A DNA stretch of 48,402 nucleotides, from assembly GCA_009602725.1 (NCBI GenBank), contig WELB01000404.1:1-48402 (forward strand), given 5' to 3'. Positions 15,095-33,025 of this stretch are shown one piece after another. Numbering within the stretch: position 1 is the first letter of the stretch; every line of letters starts with the position of its first letter. A program made the translations under genes and the position numbers. The notes beneath the pieces are model-generated. The model saw only the letters and a list, made by a program, of their open reading frames with translations, had not been told where the DNA came from and made no database searches. The DNA is from Spirogloea muscicola. Its lineage: Eukaryota; Streptophyta; Zygnematophyceae; Spirogloeales; Spirogloeaceae.

Positions 15095-15290
15095 GTGTTA
15101 AGCCAGTAACCCCTGCTTAGCAGCCTCAGGTCAGAGAAGCTAGGCTTCTGGAAGAGTCCTTCTTCAGGCGGTGGCGAGCGAGGCATTCCACCGCCTCCCT
15201 GCTACGAGCCTTGGTCAATTCTTTTTCGGGCTGGCTTTTGACAGCCCTTGCCCCGAGTGGGCGTGCCACTTCTCCCTGCGCGACCAGCGG
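15095..15290. mobile_element. Non-LTR tail (minus) next to a hairpin module (plus)
   Basis: Minus strand 15,095-15,150 carries the element end (SLSDLRLLSRGYW-like; plus reads agtaacccctgcttagcagcctcaggtcagaga). At 15,210-15,285 is a well-preserved plus-oriented module (ttggtcaattctttttcgggctggcttttgacagcccttgccccgagtggg). The two have opposite orientations, so they are independent insertions. 15,300-16,230 has no supported gene. Confidence 0.6.
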
Positions 15291-16235
15291 CCCCTCGGCA
15301 AGTAGCGAGTCGAGCCCGCCGCGCAGACAGTCCCCGGCCGCGCGGGACCTCGACTCCGCCGCCAGGGCCCATGGCCGTGCCCCGGCCTCGACCTCCAGAG
15401 CGCACGCTGGCGCAGTCCACCCCCGCCAGCCAGTCCGTTCCCGGGACGCCATGCCCCGCGCCGTGAACGCCCTCTCGGCCCTGCGCCCTGCTTGCTGGCG
15501 CGAGCTTTCCGGCGGCAGCCTCCTCAAGCGCGTCTTGCAAGCAGTGCAGCCTGCCCTCCTGCTGCGCCTGCCCTGCCTTGGCCTTCACCAGGTTCTCCAC
15601 TACTCCCTGTACCCCTCCGTCTCTCCCAGATGGGTGATCTGCCAGAAAGCTGTTGTGCCTTTGTTTGGTTGCTCGAGACCTCCCGCATACGCAGATGCAA
15701 GGTCAAGCCCCAGGCCTGCGTCGAGCTTGGACTCGCACCTTGGCAAAGCACAAAGGCTGCTACTGGTCCGATTCATGTCACTCTGACTTGACTTGCTGCT
15801 CTGTCTGGCCAGCATGCGAAGCGAGGACGGCATGTCCACGCCTCGCAGTCCGTGGGAATATAACCAGATGTTCTGGCAAGCTGTCAGGGAGTCCACTTCA
15901 ACAAGTAAGCTCTGATATAACCACTAATGTGCAAGTCGCTCGTGCGCCTCTACTTCGCCTTATGACCTCTGGTGATGACGATGACTGCCATTGACCAGGC
16001 AAGCTGATCTTGTTTGCCAGCAAAGCTCGTCGCGCCAGGGCAGTATCCCTGCCTTGCCTTGTGTCAAAGGGCCGGAAAGTTGGCATGCATTGGGATTATC
16101 CAGAGGGACACTAGGCACCACAAATTCTGCAGGACGGAGTAGCAGTCATGGCTGCTTGGTGCTATCGCTTAGTCAGTTGCGTGTCTGAAAATCGAATGTC
16201 GCCTGGGCATACAGCTGAAGTCATGCTTGAGTAAC

Positions 16236-17967
16236 ATGTTGAGTGGCACACCTCCTCCTCTGCTTGAAGATTATGCCTGGAAGCTAGGGGACTGGAAATA
16301 TGATGAGGAGGACACGGTGGAGATGTTGGAAGGAAGGGTTGCGCCAAAGGACTTGTCACCAATTCAATTGTACTACGCAGCAGAGATGATGTCGCTGCAC
16401 TGGTTTCGTACTTGTGTGATGGCTAGAGTCTTGGGTCGCTTCCAAGTCAGAGAGGGACCTCATAGCCCTAATGAAACGACCATACACGAGGCTTGTCTCT
16501 TCATCTATTATTTCAGTTGGTTCAGCAGTAAGCCGAAGGTCAAGGATGCAGTAGTAGAAGAACCTCTACCAGATATTGAATATGATCAAATTATCAAGAA
16601 GGCCACTAACAGACGTAGGGAGCTCCGTAGGGAGCTGCAGCCGCAGGACCCATCATGGCGGCATGTTGTTGTCATCAGTGTTCCTCCAGATGCTTTTGTA
16701 TCTGGGTGCGGTTCGCCTTTTGTTGTGGAGTTGCTGGGAATGCTGCGCGGTACTGCCAAGAGCTTATGCATGCATAGGATCTGCATGATGTTCCACTAGT
16801 TGAGCTGGCCCTTATGCGTGCTGCTTGGACTGACTCGAAAGCTTGGGTGAATAAGTGACTAGATTCTGACATCTCATTGCTTGTTCGAGCTTTGCCATGT
16901 GCAGGGAAGTGCAAGCAGAGCCAAGAACAAAGCCTCAAGGATACAGGTGCTCCTGGCCGCGGTTACTTTGAGCACGTCATCAAAGAGCAGCGCGTTACTC
17001 TATACGAGACTGTGGGCACCTTGAAGGAACAGCTTGCGCATGGCATCTTGTTTCTTGCCGATCTGGTCATTGTCTGTTGTGATGAATCTTATCTGCGTAA
17101 GTCACTGACGGAGAAGGAGCCTCATACTGGAGCAGCTATGGCTCTCGCTTACGTCTTGCGAGATACGATTCAATACGCCTTCTGTGTATCTGCGCCTCAT
17201 CTGTGAGCCCTGATAAGCTCTGTAGTATCTGCAGAGTCACTACTTTGCATCCAGTTGGAGCAAGTTTGGCTTCTCTTCTGACTTGTTTGATACACTGCTG
17301 CTCAGGTGGCAAGTGTGCTTCATGTTTGGTCACAAGTTTCAAAGTAAATTGAAGTCTGGCTCTTCAGATAGTCACTTGAGCGTTGCCCGCAAGCTTCGAG
17401 CTGGGATTGGGTCTATTGACTAGCATACTTGTCTGCATTGACCTTCTACTGTAAGAAGTGCAATGGTTTCAGCTGACATCCCTTCTGGTATTGGTAACCT
17501 CCAGGTATCCTGGTGATTTGGAACTTGCCGACCCTGAGAGATTAGTGTATATGAATCGGATTTGCAAGGAGTTGTTAGAGTCTATATTCCGCATCCTGGA
17601 ATCAATGGGCTCCATGAGCAGGATACTCGGAATGTGTTTGGATCTTCCCACTCTTGAGGACTTCGTCAAGCTTGGCATGCAGCATTCCTTTCCAAGTCGG
17701 TTGGAAGCTTCTCTGCTTGGAAAGTCACAACTACCTCGCCCTGAGACGAGCCCAGTTTTCCCAGTTTTTCTTCATGGCGCAAGCTCCAAAGAACCAAATC
17801 ACGACTTCTTTTCCAGAAACCATGATAAATACCAGACGACAGATATTGGGGCCATTGTAGAAGAGCACCTGCTACTGCTTCAGCTTATTTGCAGCCCCCG
17901 AGTACGCTGTTCAGCGACGCCCTTGCTTAATCAGATTCAGATGAATCATGCAGCGATCTGCTTGTGA
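16236..17967 (+). CDS. Unrecognised multi-exon protein gene
   Basis: The sequence changes here to balanced, gene-like composition. Exon a (16,236-16,697) starts MLSGTPPPLLEDYAWKLGDW and ends at ttt|gtatctgg. The next acceptor (catag|gatctg, 16,778) continues DLHDVPLVELALMRAAWTDS. Further blocks are 16,905/16,921-17,206 (EQRVTLYETVGTLKEQLAHG, ESYLRKSLTEKEPHTG), 17,235-17,343 (SHYFASSWSKFGFSSDLFDT, after tctgcag and before gtaaat) and about 17,505-17,967 (DLELADPERLVYMNRICKEL). The protein looks alpha-helical and cytosolic, with no signal peptide or membrane segment seen. I cannot name the family, and the exact donors around 16.82-16.92 kb are uncertain. The 3' end may extend past 17,967. Confidence 0.55.
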
Positions 17968-18103
17968 TCCAACAGCTAATCTAATTGCGACAAGATTGAA
18001 CGGGATCGTGCAATCATTGCTCACTCAGACAGCCCTGTGACAACAGGAACCAGGTGCAGCCACACCATGGCCGCTGCCCTTACGAGTCTGGGACTTACCT
18101 GGG

Positions 18104-18850
18104 CACCCAGTGCAGGGGAGTACTGGAGCTGATGCAGCGCAAACTGCTGCTACACTGCCACTCCCTCCAATGCTGGTGGACGCCAGATCTCTTCATGAGT
18201 GCCAGCGCCATGTCATACATAGCATAAACAAGCCCGGTTGCTCCTAACTGTAGTTGACCAACCAGGGCTGCTGATTTATGCTTTCCCCCCCAGTTTGACA
18301 TCCTTGTGTTTGGAAGCAGAATTTCCGTACTACAGCAGCTTGCATGGTTGTGCTTGTCACTCAGGGTGGTGCATGTGTTAAACCCTTAGGCACCACAAGC
18401 TGAAGGCACAACGTTGGAAAAGAATTTGTTTACAGGAGTTCCTCTGCAGGCTGAGCAGACAAAACTTACAGAACATCTCCTGCCAACATTCTCTGATAGG
18501 GTAGATGCCTTAGCCTTCCAGCCTTCCAGGTTCCTACCTTTAGCTACTGCAGAATCTGCTGCAGTTGATGCTACACTAGTCTGGATAGCCAGCAGTTCAT
18601 GGGCATATGCTGATGTATTTTGGCTGATACTACGTAGTTTGCTGAGCTGCTCATTCAGATACACTTTCTGTGTAAGACATCCTTGTCGGGGGGTCTGTAA
18701 GTTGCGCAAAGCAGCCTGCATAGGTGTACTGATGCAGCAATGGGGTGCTTGTGACAATCTCTCAGGAAGTACCAGGTGCAGCATTTCTGGACTTCTGGAA
18801 GCCGTCTGAGAAAGCCGTGCAGGAGAGAAATGCAACCTCCATGCCGCAAC
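18104..18850 (-). CDS. Possible minus-strand exons of an unrecognised gene
   Basis: Minus strand: an acceptor (cttacacag) precedes KVYLNEQLSKLRSISQNTSA, and the same frame continues AYAHELLAIQTSVASTAADS to a consensus donor (gatgttct|gtaagt). A further minus donor (tgcccag|gtaagtcc) lies near 18,104 after a frame with HKSAALVGQLQLGATGLVYA. The pieces look helical. No start, stop or family is recognised, and the exons are not proven to belong together. It would be convergent with the gene at 16.2-18.0 kb and divergent from the one at 19.46 kb. Confidence 0.3.
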
Positions 18851-19455
18851 TTCCATCAGCACCCTGTGCAGCAGTAAGTGGACCTTTCTGACCTTGTTGA
18901 TTGGGCACCTTTGCGCATTGTCAATCGCGTGGAGAGAGGTGCATTGGCAGGCGCACAAGCACTGATAGAAATTCCTGTTTAGGCCTAGCATGACCCTGTC
19001 GGCTGGACTTTATTAGGTGCTCCAAAATTTTGTCAGCATGACTGTGGCTATGGCCCATGCAACATATGATGTACAGATAAGTCGGTCGTATGATTCGATG
19101 TGCTTGCTCAGGACCACATGGATATGAGGATGGACACGTCATCGCCAGCTAGTATGATGGACGAGGGGAATGCATGGGCAGGTATACAGAGGTTGTGCAC
19201 ATCCATAGGAATGTCAGTGGGCTTGTATTGCCTGGTCGTTGTATGGGATAAGATTGCACGTCTGGTATACGCTCTTTAGAACGTGTCGTAGTGCACGTCT
19301 CTTTTTTGAAATTTAGGCATCTATCCCGCAGTACTAATTAGAACAATCACCTTCGCTTTCTGCTTTGCTGAGGCGGTCAATCAGGTCTCTCTTTCCTGCC
19401 TGTAGAACTCATCAGAGCTGCTTAGTGGAAGCTTCATGCAGGCTGTGAGCCTTCA

Positions 19456-20751
19456 ATGAGTGCAGAAAGGCAGGTAGTGGGGCTCCGCTTTGCTCCCACA
19501 GACGAGGAGTTGGTGCACTACTACTTGAGATCTCGTATAGCAGGGGAGCTTACGGAACAAGAGAAGATCCTTATCCCTGACAAGCACGTCTATGAGACTG
19601 AACCTTGGAACTTGACAAGTAAATTCTTGCCACATTCTGATAGAGACAGATAGAGACTGAGCAGCTAAGCTACTAGATCTATCAGATGCTTTAAATTTGT
19701 GCATATTGCATGGGAGCCAGCATTTGTCTGTGGAGTTGCTATGTCTCAGGCTCTTGAAGCCAAGTTACTGCTTTACACTGATATCGTTCTACACGATGTC
19801 ATCAAGGACCAACATGTGCCTTCGATGCTTGCCGTCATATAGTCACAAAGGGTTTCTCACTTGGACTGCCTGAGAGTGTCAAAGCTTGGTTGCAAAGCCG
19901 GTCTGCTAGTCTCTATCTCATCATTCACTTTGATCACATGCTTGTGTGCAGGCAAGTCTTGTCGAGTGCTCCATGATGCATATTTCTTCTGTGCCCTCCG
20001 GCGCAAGTATCCAGATGGCTCCGAAAGGAAAGGGGATTATAATCGCCAAGCAGGGAAGGGCAAGTGGAAAGGCTGTAGTACCATGACCATGCCACTAAGT
20101 GGAGTAACAGCAACAAAACGCATATTCACGTACTACAGCGAGGATCAAGGACCCATTGATCCGGTGCCTGAAGGCTGGTCCCATCTGGAGAAGAGCAGCA
20201 GTGATGCTCATATGCAACAAGCTGCAGCTCCAGTATGTCAAGTCTCACACCTTTTGCCTCGTCTGCGTTCCTTACCTGCTGGTTGTAGATAGTGCCTACT
20301 TTGACCACAGCCATGCACACTATAGGGGTGCACTAGGACTCTTCTGACGCATTGTGGTCGACCAGACAATTTTGAAGTACTCCATCCTGTGGTAATACAG
20401 GATGCAGTGAAGGAGGTTTCCGTCTCGTCCAAGAAGAGGGTCCGAAAAGGCAGTGCACGCAACAGCAAGACAAAATGGATACTGCACGAGTATCATATAG
20501 TTGACCACCAGTCAATAGCAACACAGGTAAGTACGAGATGCTGCATGTATGGAGCTGTGCTTTAGAACTTGATATTGCTCAAGGTTTATGGATGGACTGC
20601 GTAATTGCACACTTAAAGGCCAAACAGGTCCACTTTGATGAAGACTGCCTGCAGGGTAGGCCAGCCCCTTGTATTCCTTGATAGTGCATATGAAATGTAT
20701 CAGAGGATGTTGCTATTGCAGGATGAAATCGTTGTGTGCAAGCTCAAGTAC
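19456..20751 (+). other. NAC domain (exons 1-4 of the fusion gene)
   Basis: NAC subdomains appear in order. They are [20 protein letters not shown] (A), [16 protein letters not shown] (B), [18 protein letters not shown] and GKGKWKG (C), [13 protein letters not shown] (D; W174 and HEY), and [10 protein letters not shown] (E). The family role is DNA-binding and dimerising transcription factors. Unusual points: the canonical YWKATGKD core reads KWKGCSTM, and about 70 residues are inserted between KRIFTYY and KTKWILHEY, including a basic run ([15 protein letters not shown]). DNA contact may therefore differ from typical NACs. A stand-alone reading would stop at 21,475-21,477 through retention of intron 4. 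Confidence 0.85.
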
Positions 20752-23700
20752 ACTGCTGAAGTCGACAGTGCTTCAATCACCACAGAGCTGGAGAAGTTGG
20801 ATGTCACTTTGTCTGGCGGTAGATCCTCAAGTGCTAAGTGTGCACTTTGCAGCCCCCTGGCTTGGTATGGAAAAGCCATTATTGTCGGCTGTCGTGATCA
20901 GCTGGCGGTGAGCGAGGCAGGTGCTAGTGAGAAATGCACTGCCGGTACTGAGATTGAAGAAAGATCGCTTGGGGGCATCCATGAGACCCGGACCGGACTG
21001 GATGACCATGTCAAGAGGGGAGAAATTGACCAGGCTGGAGGAGAGTGGAGTAGGAACGTACTTCCCACCAGTACAGCGCTAAATGAAGAGGATCTTCAAG
21101 AGGGTGCTCTCATGGGAGGTCGGGGTGGAGGAGCCACGCTTGGAGAGCAGGATCTGGACCTTCGGCTGTGGCCAGCTGAAGCTGCTGCATCTCCCCAGAA
21201 GCAGATTCAGAGGCAGAGGAAGAAAGAAAGAAGAAAGAAAGAATTGGAACACGTTATTACTGACGATGGTTCTGCACCTCATTTAGACCACCATGTGTAC
21301 CACCCACCTGATCATGAGCTCCTAGAACTCCTTACCGCACAACTTCATCGCAACTCCTACTCTCAGCAGGTATGCCTTCATTTCAACAATGGTCTTCAGG
21401 AGATTCCTGAAGTGTGTCAACAGACTCAAGACCCCCTTTTTCTTATTATTTGCACAGCAAGTTTGTGCCGCTGCTGAAGGGCACCAATCCCTCTCATGGC
21501 TTGCAGGATATGGAACGGTTGATGGTAGATATGGAGAAGAGTAGGGAGATAGAAATGGAGATGTGTAGGGAGATAGGGGAGCGATGGAAGGCGACGCAGG
21601 CTGCGGAGGTAGCGCGGCGGCTGGCCAAGGAGGAGAGCCGACTGCGCACGGAGGCCATGGCGGCTGCCCGGGCTGCACAGACGCTTGCTGAGAGCCAGGC
21701 GAAGCCGCGGGAGGAAGCTGAAGCGTTTGAGCAGAACACCCGGCAGGAGCTCCTTGACTCCCAGCAAAGGCGGTACCGCACGTTCACGTGGGAGGAGCTC
21801 CAGGTGCTTGACGTATTAGCCTAGCGAGTTAAAGCTTCTGAATAACCAAGGCACAAGCACTTCCTTGACTGATTTCCCCATAAGCATATGAAATAAGCAC
21901 TTTGACTTGAGAGAGGCCTGAGCTCCAAGTGCCTGATCCTTTCCAGGCTGCTACGGACAACTTCAGCGAGAAGATTGGGGAGGGCGGGTATGGATGGGTG
22001 TTCCGAGGCAGGCTGCACCATACAGACATTGCCATCAAGGTCCTCAAGAGCACAGACGCCAGTGAGGGAAGGTCTGAGGAGTTTCAACATGAGGTACTTC
22101 TTGACGATTTGTGGCCTCGATTTGGTATCCTCTCTTACAGCTTCCCGCTTCAGCATTAGCTTGTATTAGACAGTGAACTGTCTCACTGATATGCCAAAGC
22201 CGACTGACGGTCACTGTCGAGTCTGTCAGGTGGAGCTGCTGGGGCGCATGCAGCACCCCCATATGGTCATGCTTCTGGGCTGCTGCGTCGAAGTGACAGA
22301 CGATGGCTCGTGTCGTTTCGCCATAGTCTATGACTATTGCGCCAATGGAAATCTGGAAGAGCACCTGTCTGGTCAGGCGGCCCTGCCATGGCACACCAGG
22401 ATACGTGTTGCAGCAGAGGTATGAGAAAGTGCTTCAATCACTTACCTCCTCTTCCATCCTGTGGTCAAAGAGCGTGACATCCATGGCCTCCGTAAAGCCC
22501 TGGTGTAAAAGCATGTCTGGTGATCATTTTACACCTGGCCTTGCAAAAGCTGGCCAAGTCACTGGTTTCAGCTCCAACATGTAGGCATGTCTATCTGACC
22601 TTGCAGAAGTAACCTCAAAGTGCTCTGTTGACAGTCATTACTCACAAGCCTTGGGGGTGGGTGCACATGCCTCCAGGTCACGTCAGCACTTGTCTTCCTT
22701 CACAGTAACGATCCGCCCATCCTCCACAGAGCCCTGAAGGCAGCAAACATTTTGCTGGATCAAAACCTCGTGGGGAAGCTTGCGGTGAGCCTGTTAATTG
22801 GGGAACTGCTGACAATCGTAATCACCCAATGCTCTGGTTGATCAAGCCCATGTGGATGTTTGACCTTTTCAGTATTGGTGCTGATGGATGCCCCAATTTT
22901 GAGCTGATGCAGGATGTGGGCATGGCGGAGCTCATGCCGGGCATTGCTGGCCAGCTGAGGATGCGGACGCACGTGACACAGACCATTGCGGTTGGCACGC
23001 TCGCATACGTGGACCCCGAGTTCTATTGGACGGGCCGGTGGGGCACCAAGTCTGATGTCTACAGCCTCGGGATTGTGCTTCTCCAGCTGCTCACCGGGAA
23101 AGTCCAGGTTGCATATTGAAACCTTTGTTCGTAATTGAACCCTAAATCCTAAACCCTAAAACCAGATCATTCCACGTTTTAAGTCCGAAGTAGTCTGGAA
23201 AAGGTAGTCCGTCTCCATGTGTGCCCCCAAAAATGTGAATTGGTTCATCGATCCTCCCTTGGCCGAGAGATGACAGCTGCTGCTGCACATGTGGGTCAGA
23301 TCATGGACAAGGTGGAAGATGCGGTACAGAGGGACAATCTGGAGAGCGTCCTGGACCCGGCGAGCGGCAAGTGGCCCCGCAGTGTTGCGCTGGAGCTGGC
23401 TCTTCTTGCGCTTGAGTGTGTGAAGCTGCGGCGCAAGGACCGTCCAGAGGTTGCAAGCGTCATGGCTCACCTCGACGCCCTCAGAACGACTGCCAAGGAA
23501 GCCGCTGATAAGGAGGCGCCTGCCCAGCGCAGTTTCCCGCTGGTAAGGATGCCCAGCGCAAGACGGCCGTCGCGTCGTTTGCCAGCAAACGACGCGACGC
23601 GAGCAGTTTCAATGCATACTCTTCGTGCCCTATGACACAGGTAAGGGGCAACATTTCGAGACTTCCTCAGGCTTGACCTCCTGAGGTTGCTGCTTGGGTG

Positions 23701-25082
23701 CTGAGTCACTAACCCGTATCTAGTTGCTTCCAAAATAGTCAATTGTGGATACACATGTTTGACCAATTTGCACCTGCTAGGAGGAGCGGAGCATCAAGAA
23801 CTTCTGCTCCGAGATGTCCATCACTAAGGACAGATTGCAAGCTCCCTTCTCCTACGAGGAGCTCATGGACGCAATTAAGGACTTCAATCCCATTTACATT
23901 GTTGGTTGTGGCGCCTTGGGGAAAGTCTATGGGTGCGAATGTTGCCCTGCTTGCAAGCGTGGTTATGCTTGGTGCTTGTGTCCTCGTTGTTTTCTTATCC
24001 CTGGCACTTTCTTATCCTATGGCAAACTCTCACTACCATTCAAAATGCTGAGCAGTGCACAGATGAAGGACGGGCAAAAGTATGCAGTGAAGAAGCTAGC
24101 GTCGGACAACAAGCAAGGACTGAGATTGGTGAAAGCTGAGTTGGAGGTATTAAGTCGCATTTGTCACCGCAACGTGGTCCCGCTACGGGGGTGGTACATC
24201 CCTAAGGACAGCGACGTCGACATGCTGCTCATCTATCCATTCTTGCCTGGCGGGAATCTTGACCAATTGGTGCACGGGGGAATTGGCGTGCCTCCAAAGC
24301 CAGAAGGGTTCGATCACTGGGCTGCACGTAAGAAGGTCATGTTGGGTGCAGCAGTTGGGCTGAGGTACCTGCATCACGGGTGCAACGATCAGGTGCTGCA
24401 TAGGGACATCAAGCCAAGCAACACCTTGTTGGATGAACATGGTGAAGGGTACGTGGCGGATTTTGGGCTTGCACGAACCTTTCAGGCACATGACACGCAC
24501 GTGTCAACCATGGCTGCAGGTGACTCACGATACCCTCCAACGTCCGTTGAGCTGTATCGTAGGCCTCTTTGGCATAGTGCAAGGAGGATGTGTTGACCCA
24601 TGCTGGTAGAGGCACCTCAGACTGCCTGGCAATGATTATGGGTCATCTTTCCTGCAACTCATGACGCGTCACGATGATGCACATGGACAGGCACAGTTGG
24701 GTATATCGGTCCAGATTGCGCCCTAGGCCAACTGACTACATACAGCGCTACATACAGCGATGTCTTCAATTTTGGAGTGATGCTTCTCGAGACTGTGACT
24801 GGCAAACGGCCTGTTGACCCTTTCTTTCAGACCGAAGCTGCAACTGGTGGCAACTTGATTTCGTGGGTGCGATCCTGCTTTCGCCATGAGAAGCCTTTGG
24901 AGTGCGTTGATATAGCGCTAGCTCCATTCGGCCCCCAGAAAGTGGACGAAATTCGGGGCGCCTTGAGAGCGGGGCTACTCTGCTGCTCCTATATCCCAAC
25001 CATGGATGGCGTTGTTGAGATGCTCCAGAATCTTGGAGCATTTGGTGCTATGTTTCCTAAGTGGACCTTTGCCACTGAATGA
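19456..25082 (+). CDS. NAC domain - coiled coil - pseudokinase - kinase fusion protein
   Basis: Thirteen exons join into one frame of about 1,145 codons: 19456-19618, 19952-20232, 20401-20526, 20722-21369, 21507-21803, 21947-22093, 22230-22418, 22677-22784, 22913-23107, 23270-23542, 23781-23932, 24053-24519, 24691-25082. All introns are GT-AG, and most after exon 2 are phase 0. Domains: NAC (residues about 9-200), linker with LDLRL (335-339) and a basic patch (about 357-366), coiled coil (about 407-495), U-box-kinase-type domain (about 499-790; HRD Asp replaced by Ala at 636), receptor-like kinase domain (about 833-1130; K873, D978, D996). No signal peptide or membrane segment is seen, so the protein is probably nuclear or cytosolic. 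The joins between NAC and kinase 1 (137-nt intron) and between the kinases (238-nt intron) are too short for separate promoters. Adjacent separate genes remain possible until transcripts are examined. The acceptors for exons 10 and 12 are the least certain. Confidence 0.75.
21154..21168 (+). other. LxLxL (EAR-like) motif in the linker
   Basis: Exon 4 encodes [13 protein letters not shown] satisfies the LxLxL pattern of plant EAR repression motifs, which recruit TOPLESS-type corepressors. It is followed by a lysine/arginine-rich stretch ([12 protein letters not shown]) that could act as a nuclear localisation signal. Short motifs arise by chance, so function is inference. Confidence 0.45.
21507..23542 (+). 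other. Coiled coil plus U-box-kinase-type pseudokinase (exons 5-10)
   Basis: Exon 5 encodes a charged coiled coil ([20 protein letters not shown]) leading into [11 protein letters not shown], the junction typical of plant U-box kinases (PUB33/35 type). Kinase features are GEGGYG (516-521), AIK with K536, and [13 protein letters not shown]. The catalytic loop is [12 protein letters not shown], where Ala636 replaces the HRD Asp. DVG (654-656) occurs where that family also has DVG, then [20 protein letters not shown] and RRKDRP. The nucleotides read cac aga gcc ctg aag. Without the HRD Asp it is predicted to lack phosphotransfer activity. No U-box follows; kinase 2 takes its place. Confidence 0.8.
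23140..23160. repeat. Interstitial telomere-like repeat in intron 9
   Basis: Three consecutive 7-bp units CCCTAAA, TCCTAAA, CCCTAAA match the plant-type telomere unit with one mismatch. The tract lies in the intron between exons 9 and 10 of the fusion gene. It could be a relic of break repair or a telo-box-like element. Confidence 0.9.
23781..25082 (+). other. Second kinase domain, catalytically complete (exons 11-13)
   Basis: [20 protein letters not shown] leads into glycine loop [10 protein letters not shown] and AVKKL (K873). Next come [40 protein letters not shown] (D978) and ADFGLARTF (D996), then [10 protein letters not shown] and [20 protein letters not shown]. The pattern is that of plant receptor-like or LRR-RLK intracellular kinases. 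The HRD Arg-Asp pair predicts an RD kinase activated through its activation loop. Oddities: YIGPD where YIAPE is usual, and a small internal duplication ([11 protein letters not shown]; tacagcg repeated). The TGA stop is at 25,080-25,082. Confidence 0.8.
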
Positions 25083-25639
25083 CTCAGATCTATTACTCCG
25101 TGCATTTCCCTCTTTTGGCTGGCTCCATATCAATGCCATCCATGAGACTCCTGGAGGTCGAGAATTGATGCTGCAAAGAAATAACAATTCCTATGAATTA
25201 CGACAAGTGTATGGTGGTGCACTGTCCCGTCGCTACTTTTGCCGTCTGACCGTGGTGTTGGTTATGTAGCACGACATAGCAAGAAGCAGAGCTGTGAGGC
25301 ACTGAGAAGTTGAAAGGGTGATAGTGCGAGGAAAAAGTGAGGGTGTGACGGAAGAGAGGAAGTTGAGACGTGGCCAGCCTCTTAGGCAGGGCAGCGTCCC
25401 ATCAGCGTCCCAGTAGCACTGTGGTCAGTGGAATGCAACTGAGCTTTGCCCGTCCTGCAGTGGTGGCAAAAACTGCTATACTGTACAGACTTATATTTGA
25501 AGCATATAACCAAGTCAGAGCATGTGAAAAGCTAGCTCGGAAAGAATTGATTAGGCCCCACGGAGCCGGAAAGTGCTGAGACACGTAATTGAAGTACGTA
25601 CCATGCAGGGTGATCACTTATAAATTTTCTCCTCAGCAG

Positions 25640-25790
25640 CCGCAAGTCAGAAAAAGAAGCTGCCGGAAATCAGCCCCTTGACGAAAGCGAGAGGCTGCAG
25701 CTAGAGCACGGCCAGCACGTAGATGCAAGGCGTGGGCCATGGACCGCTGGACGGATGTGGACAGGGCGCATACAAAACGCCTGCGCTAGC
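25640..25790 (-). mobile_element. Non-LTR element C-terminal fragment
   Basis: Minus-strand frames give pieces equivalent to HALHLRAGRALAAAS and FRQG (plus reads gctgcagctagagcacggccagcac, then gatgcaaggcgtgggccatggaccgctgg). The same block recurs at 35,700-35,790 and 37,640-37,710. The stretch from the fusion gene stop to here (25,083-25,640) shows no supported gene. Confidence 0.55.
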
Positions 25791-26085
25791 CAGTCGAGAG
25801 AGACGCTGGGGCGCGCATGCTGCCTCGCTGACTGGATGTCTGCTGTGGGGGTTGAGGAGGCTGTCGGCTATCGCGGCGAAGGTGTGGGCGAGGCAAGGGC
25901 TGTCGCAGGCCAGGACGATCGTTAGAGCCGCGGCAGTGGGGCCTGTCGAGGCGCCCCCCGCAGGCGCTCCCGCGGAGCCCGATTCATTCTTCCAGTGCCG
26001 CGCTTTCCCTTTTGTTGGGGACGACGAGCTTGTGATGGAGAAGAAGCAGCTCTTTCAAACGAAACAGCTCTTCCAATGTAGGGCA

Positions 26086-31880: not shown

Positions 31881-33025
31881 ACGTACTTGTAGTCCCAGAA
31901 TTTTTCGGTATCAAGATACCGAACAATTCGTTTGACGGCTTGCCAGTGGGCCATCCCAGGATGTTACATGAATTGACTAACTACTCCAACTGCTGCAGCA
32001 AGATCTGGTCTTGTCCCAGTGATTAGTTACATTAGGCTGCCCACAGCCCGCTGATATGGTATATTGGACATTGTGGCCTCCTCTGCTGCTGACTGTGGTC
32101 CTGCTCCTTCGTCGATGTCAACTTTAGGTCCATGGGAGTCGACACCGGCTTGCAACCCTCCATGTGGAACTGCTGCAGCACCTGCTCAGCATATCGGACC
32201 TGTCCCAACTTGATGCTTCTCCGCCTTCGATCCTTAAACACCTGCACACCCAGCAGGTAGGACACCTCCCCAAGGTCTGACATCTTAAATCTGCTGCACA
32301 GCAACCCCTTCACCCTGTTGACACTCTCCAGACTGGGGCTGAGTATGAGCAGGTCGTCCACATACAAAGCCAACAGCACCACAGGCTGTGCTGGCTCACG
32401 GAGCACATAGACACTTGTGTCCTAGTACATCGCACGAATCCTGCCTCCTTCAACACGTCATTGATTTTGTAGTTCCACTTTCTGGGCGCCTGCTTTAGCC
32501 CGTACATGGACTTCTTCAAGAGACAGACCGTGGTTGGCTGCTCTGGGTCAGCGAAACCTTCAGGCTGCATCATGAAAATTTCTTCCTCCAGATCCCCGTT
32601 GAGAAACGCTGTCTTCACATCCATCTGGTGAGTTTCAACCTCCCTGATTGCGGCTAGACTCAGCAACACTCGGATGGAGGTGTATTTAGCAACCGGTTCC
32701 AAGGTTTCAGCGTAATCAATTACTTCGACCTGGGAAAATCCCTTTGCCACCAGTCTTGCCTTGTATCGCACAAGTTCTCCGTCTGCACCTCTCTTCCGCC
32801 GAAGCACCCATTTGCAACCGATTGCCTTCCGCCCGTGGCAAGTCAACAAGTTTCTGCGTCTTGTTTTCTCCAATAGAACGCATCTCTTTAGCTGCAGCTA
32901 ACTCCCACTCGTAGCATCCTCCATATGCCTTGCCTGCACCATGGTCAGGGGTTCATCTACGGTAGCTGCAAAACCAAAGAAGTGTGCGGGATCCTCCCTA
33001 ACCCTCACCTGTCTCGTTCTTGTGC

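Follow-up and report, generated by a model that had tools for sequence, protein, structure and literature searches.

The locus and its gene model

The window analysed here is an entire contig (C404, 48,402 nucleotides) of the assembly of Spirogloea muscicola, a unicellular alga closely related to land plants; the assembly comprises 153.1 Mb in 471 contigs. On its forward strand, thirteen exons between positions 19456 and 25082 carry pieces of a NAC gene, a U-box-kinase (PUB) gene and an LRR-receptor-kinase gene (Table 1). The thirteen GT-AG exons with matching phases that had been predicted from the letters form one open frame, of 1,134 stop-free codons when acceptor 24055 is used (rather than the approximately 1,145 first counted), and the public model is spliced alike: SM000404S15665 (1,735 aa; s404:15451-25082) contains the 1,134-aa protein at 100% identity. 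Removing 21 GT-AG introns from the window sequence regenerates that model exactly, and its last 12 introns include the 11 that follow exon 2 of the predicted gene, plus the NAC intron at 19619-19951. Identifiers built in this way denote S. muscicola genes in PMC10262750 and PMC12290401. Pfam likewise recovered the expected NAC and two kinase domains in the 1,134-aa model, as a NAM match at residues 8-121 (80 bits, against a curated cut-off of 27) and two kinase stretches; a domain search found no NB-ARC domain in this model or in P0001. The ATG at 19456 was rejected as a conserved start. It is missing from both close NAC kin, on contigs C21 and C264, and the true start therefore probably lies upstream (the public model starts at 15451).

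Table 1. Features of the chimeric locus, in window coordinates.
Feature	Position	Strand	Evidence or remark
Segment A, NAC gene	19456-21319: exons 19456-19618, 19952-20232, 20401-20526, 20722 to ~21319	+	NAM and collinear kin
Junction 1	21318-21353, inside coding exon 4 (20722-21369)	+	last NAC homology by ~21319; PUB scored from 21354
Segment B, U-box-kinase (PUB) gene	21354-23703: exons 21507-21803, 21947-22093, 22230-22418, 22677-22784, 22913-23107, 23300-23542	+	PUB homology; Pfam kinase
Intron inherited from PUB gene	21370-21506	+	same donor; PUB acceptor gone, next AG (GCAG) taken
Net insertion, approx. 56 nt, with internal inverted repeat	23543-23598	+	gives donor 23543, disrupts the frame behind
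U-box start remnant, frame-shifted	23603-23640	+	followed by the rival ancestral donor (GT at 23641); stop codon ends at 23635
Fourth source, 54 nt	23727-23780	+	ends in TAG acceptor of intron 23543-23780; 89-93% to seven other places
Segment C, kinase 2 from LRR receptor kinase	23781-25082: exons 23781-23932, 24056-24519, 24691-25082	+	23779-25094 86.3% to L017
3' flank common to receptor-kinase kin	25083-25976	+	scored pieces to 25961 (L017), 25976 (L022)

Open reading frames at 16270-17901, upstream of the NAC part, differ from their C21 counterparts more in exons than in introns. Exon 16270-16749 showed dN 0.281 against dS 0.129 (bootstrap P 0.003; 0.013 gap-guarded), with its flanking introns at 5%; dN lay above dS in the other two pairs as well, not significantly (1.46 and 1.25), and exceeded intron divergence in all three. 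This pattern of substitution possibly reflects diversifying selection on a domain, of the kind seen in recognition proteins. Three pieces of the region matched no Pfam family at E up to 10, and AlphaFold2 reached a mean pLDDT of 26.9 for P0005 with its two kin. C264 holds a further copy of the upstream domain, with greater divergence and with NAC pieces arranged behind it as in the window (L027:1597-5770, at ~96.6-100.8 kb). We did not accept as proven the public model's join of these frames to the NAC part: the exons that would make the link, 18047-19181, show intron-like evolution (omega 1.04, 1.27 and 1.38), so the upstream frames may be a separate gene. On the other side of the locus, 26-38 kb holds further repeated open reading frames, and a frame at 32313-32897 on the reverse strand resembles, by eye, a copia-type reverse transcriptase.

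Sources and junctions of the chimera

Own-genome searches placed the nearest kin of the pieces on separate contigs: C21 and C264 for the NAC part, C26, C11 and C18 for the coiled coil and kinase 1, and, among the matches listed, C2, C320, C330 and others for kinase 2, the kinase lists giving minimum numbers of kin, as scoring covered 105 of 469 and 120 of 533 candidates. Comparison of the listed places by eye revealed no NAC match within 50 kb of a kinase match outside C404. With a difference of 12-18% between each piece and the closest kin found for it, the contig is no patchwork of stretches present elsewhere in the assembly. DNA homology switches at ~21320, within exon 4, and again between 23703 and 23779. 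The gene is a chimera, and the sequence itself shows where its pieces come from, where they were joined and which gene ends went missing, as well as that the frame is open and that the U-box and the HRD aspartate are lost.

The NAC part is collinear at the DNA level with C21 over 15287-21317 (86.9%) and with C264 over 15351-21218 (81.0%). The corresponding genes, SM000021S06534 and SM000264S09760, belong to the same NAC group (89% and 85% identity over the NAC region) and, unlike the window gene, have no kinase in either model and retain their own end and donor at exon 4. Similarity across 15287-21319 is itself a mosaic, with 10 of 12 introns at least 93% identical to C21 and the second half of exon 4 closer to C264 (83% vs 77%), which suggests conversion among copies. 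In solved NAC structures, the motif WKATG lies near the DNA interface of the domain. The window NAC matches two such structures, NAC1 and ANAC019, with WKGCSTMT at the position of that motif and ~50 additional residues preceding TKWILHEY, both of which are found in the two kin also. DNA binding by this NAC is doubtful, given WKGCST in place of WKATG.

From ~21320 on, the window carries the closing part of a PUB exon (...YSQQ) with the PUB donor, where the C21 and C264 kin keep their own; by eye, PUB homology is visible from ~21322. The intron behind it is largely common to the window and the PUB homeologs, and corresponding introns occur in the exactly mapped PUB models P0003 and P0006. The acceptor of the PUB models, CATCAG, is absent from the window when compared by eye, as are ~300 bases of PUB sequence behind it, and no scored match to the PUB loci covers 21503-21588. 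On either side, 21354-21502 matches three PUB loci at 77-79%, and 21589-23703 matches C26, C11 and C18 at 82.9-84.0%. A genome search with 21300-21600 returned the window and three PUB loci, and nothing else. A genome triplication has been reported for S. muscicola (PMC7994812), and the three-fold PUB loci on C11, C18 and C26 fit that report. With the original 3' end of the NAC gene gone, and likewise the start of the PUB piece, transcription through the NAC exons would continue into those from PUB, and the fusion of NAC, coiled coil and kinase 1 is established at the DNA level. Such break points and lost ends make a stronger argument for fusion than the lengths of the two border introns (137 and 238 nt), which the original prediction had used and which we dropped.

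The coiled coil and kinase 1 derive from the family represented by the U-box kinases SM000018S03598 and SM000011S19065, similar to land-plant PUB52; both possess the U-box, the N-terminal part and HRD, all three of which the window copy lacks. No U-box was found in P0001, and the window keeps only its frame-shifted start. Kinase 1 reads HRA where the PUB kin read HRD (P0007 of the tandem set reads HRN), so that its earlier description as a pseudokinase is correct at residue level; DVG in place of DFG is ancestral and common to the PUB kin, and the ATP-site lysine (of AIK) is retained.

Junction 2 is more complex. The exon in PUB kin continues into the U-box and ends at a donor equivalent to 23641, and in the window read-through past 23542 meets a stop at 23635, 30 codons on and ahead of kinase 2. 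Genome searches found no kin elsewhere for the insertion at 23543, and likewise no origin for 23704-23726. In the four of those seven places that were read, the 54-nt segment ends in CTGCTAG or TTGCTAG ahead of a conserved stretch, and this could be a native intron end. A repeated family sharing these 54 nt lies near the middle of each of L032, L033, L034 and L035, with a conserved open reading frame (ALWSQV...) after the shared piece. In six aligned receptor-kinase kin, by eye, the exon continues upstream of 23779 with LRR, transmembrane and juxtamembrane parts. Intron 23543-23780 thus owes neither of its splice sites to the source gene flanking it on that side, the donor lying in the insertion and the acceptor where receptor-kinase kin code.

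These sites were scored with a splice matrix drawn from 67 introns of six other public models (P0002 and P0005, two of the nine proteins, had no exact mapping and were left out). Donor 23543 scored 6.9 (49th percentile) and its competitor 23641 scored 9.7 (93rd percentile); acceptor 23780, at -0.3, fell under all 67 training acceptors, but so did the family-conserved acceptor 24055 at -2.3, making the matrix only a rough guide. A product carrying kinase 2 would be possible, and likely a minority. The original prediction of a single fused protein holds for NAC and pseudokinase, where the DNA break points bear it out; the link to the second kinase hangs on one intron with both splice sites out of ancestral context, and is an uncertain prediction. 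The public annotation seems to merge neighbouring genes sometimes, P0002 (which looks like two tandem PUB genes within one model) and the neutral-looking upstream linker exons serving as warnings; this objection is answered at junction 1, because the join there is exonic, and still weighs on junction 2.

Kinase 2 itself retains the lysine, HRD and DFG, has an open frame across its three exons, and finds its best solved-structure match in the BRI1 kinase. Compared with L017 it shows a 4-residue insertion, four residues (KERP) missing near the end, and changes in the P-loop. The LRR ectodomain and transmembrane helix are absent from the window, as receptor-kinase homology begins downstream of them. 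The transcription unit likely ends within the 3' flank that the receptor-kinase kin have in common.

Divergence and constraint

Segments A, B and C contain no stop in the window, as compared with one in t18, two in L019 and two in L025 among the kin. Exons have diverged less than introns, both in B (6.7-8.0% vs 17.0-18.5% from PUB kin) and in C (9.9% vs 18.4% from L017). Between the window and PUB kin dS was 0.120-0.171, against 0.113-0.145 among the kin themselves, and dN was 0.050-0.056 against 0.022-0.029. Omega was computed for window-unique changes, which pools changes before and after the join as these are indistinguishable. Segment A gave 0.66 and segment B 0.47 (P against neutrality 0.15 and 0.02, respectively), and C gave 0.58 on the agreement of five kin (P 0.11) and 0.46 on that of two (P 0.0013). 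The range in six controls drawn from the kin was 0.16-0.44. L021, its projected exon 13 being out of step, was left out of the dN/dS and omega comparisons. Constraint thus appears looser than in most kin, and falls short of proving that the gene is actively maintained. When neutral drift was simulated over the 3,258 bases of A, B and C, the frame stayed free of stops in 9.9, 3.85 and 0.25% of runs at 2, 3 and 5% divergence. The join is therefore either young or has experienced some constraint, and youth is likely. Pairwise DNA alignment left exon gaps that were not multiples of three (three per kin in A; 1, 0 and 1 in B; 0, 1 and 1 in C), which we read as alignment slips, and the codon alignment keeps every frame used.

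Predicted products and alternative explanations

The explanation that we favour, and to which we would give an even chance of being right, is an in-frame fusion between exon 4 of a NAC gene and the PUB exons for coiled coil and kinase, with the HRD aspartate replaced, at a locus that makes mainly a NAC-coiled-coil-pseudokinase product; the kinase domain of an LRR receptor kinase would be appended by predicted splicing. Transcription would run from the promoter of the NAC gene to the 3' end of the receptor-kinase gene, because the PUB piece keeps neither a start nor an end of its own. Use of the ancestral donor at 23641 would yield the main product, with a 30-residue tail, and use of donor 23543 with acceptor 23780 a minor one that includes kinase 2. 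Through its NAC part the protein may enter the nucleus and pair with NAC kin, and the PUB coiled coil and pseudokinase, with the ATP-site lysine kept, may serve as a docking module. Deprived of the U-box, such a protein would not ubiquitinate the former partners of PUB but hold them at NAC sites or deplete them by titration; with the minor form, a kinase whose catalytic residues are intact would arrive there too.

A less probable, although serious, competitor is a chimera in decay: a fusion produced by chance repair, with little or no transcription, on its way to becoming a pseudogene. Omega above that of most kin controls, the lost HRD aspartate and the frame-breaking insertion at 23543 would all be expected of such a gene; the NAC-kinase combination was found once, and several kin of the arrays (t18, L019 and L025) carry stops. 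Against decay, the neutral chance that A, B and C remain stop-free together is 0.099, 0.0385 and 0.0025 at 2, 3 and 5% divergence, and B departs from neutrality (P 0.02), although part of that signal may predate the join.

That NAC, pseudokinase and active kinase form one chain, selected as a switch or a decoy, as was originally proposed, now appears unlikely. In its favour, intron 23543-23780 preserves the frame, the three kinase-2 exons are open and encode the lysine, HRD and DFG, and SM000404S15665 agrees, this agreement being one of gene prediction and not counted as RNA evidence. The weak acceptor at 23780, the stronger rival donor at 23641, the relaxed constraint and the divergent NAC motif all speak against it. 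Neither the signal-to-transcription switch nor the integrated decoy has direct support, in view of a combination found once, the relaxed constraint and a NAC group without WKATG. We regard as similarly improbable the idea of a newborn, nuclear, one-protein signal-to-transcription device assembled from four sources, with NAC, a pseudokinase scaffold and an active receptor-type kinase, in which the choice between donors 23543 and 23641 would toggle kinase 2. Least probable of all are separate neighbouring genes, or an assembly join, mis-merged by annotation: P0002 resembles two tandem PUB genes in one model and the upstream public-model exons at 18047-19181 evolve like introns, but junction 1 lies within a coding exon, the pieces lack their own ends, and every piece stands 12-18% from its nearest found kin.

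If the favoured NAC-coiled-coil-pseudokinase gene is expressed, it would show how transcription-factor and kinase domains come to be joined in a single protein, at a stage when break points, missing gene ends and rival splice sites can all be read; if it is not, it makes a clear case for requiring transcript support behind domain fusions in algal gene models.

Relation to known proteins

Among the best 120 of 364 proteins (from 7,992 candidates scored), NAM occurred in three and NAM with a kinase in one, SM000404S15665. A search with the NAC part among long proteins gave 3 of 453 candidates, all from S. muscicola and including SM000404S15665. Such searches reach only proteins sharing short exact words, so that absence elsewhere is unproven. 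The literature searched (open-licence papers, represented mostly by titles and the beginnings of abstracts) yielded no NAC-kinase fusion protein. A transcription-factor domain and a kinase-type domain do share one protein in Arabidopsis WRKY19, described as an NLR with PAH, two WRKY and MAPK-type domains (PMC9528084); WRKY19 differs in being an NLR and in having WRKY rather than NAC, no NB-ARC having been found in the window gene.

Tandem kinase proteins (TKPs) such as RPG1 and WTK1/Yr15 are a second point of comparison. In one survey 40 of 92 TKPs were ascribed to gene fusion, and the 92 were described as having no additional conserved domains (PMC6170490). As in TKPs, a kinase and a pseudokinase from different kinase families are predicted in one chain here, the pairing being legible in the residues themselves (kinase 1 with HRA, kinase 2 with HRD and DFG), but a NAC domain stands ahead of them and the second kinase hangs on an uncertain intron. 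If expressed, the gene would encode a TKP-like protein with a transcription-factor domain, and would offer a test case for the birth of signalling proteins near the origin of land plants.
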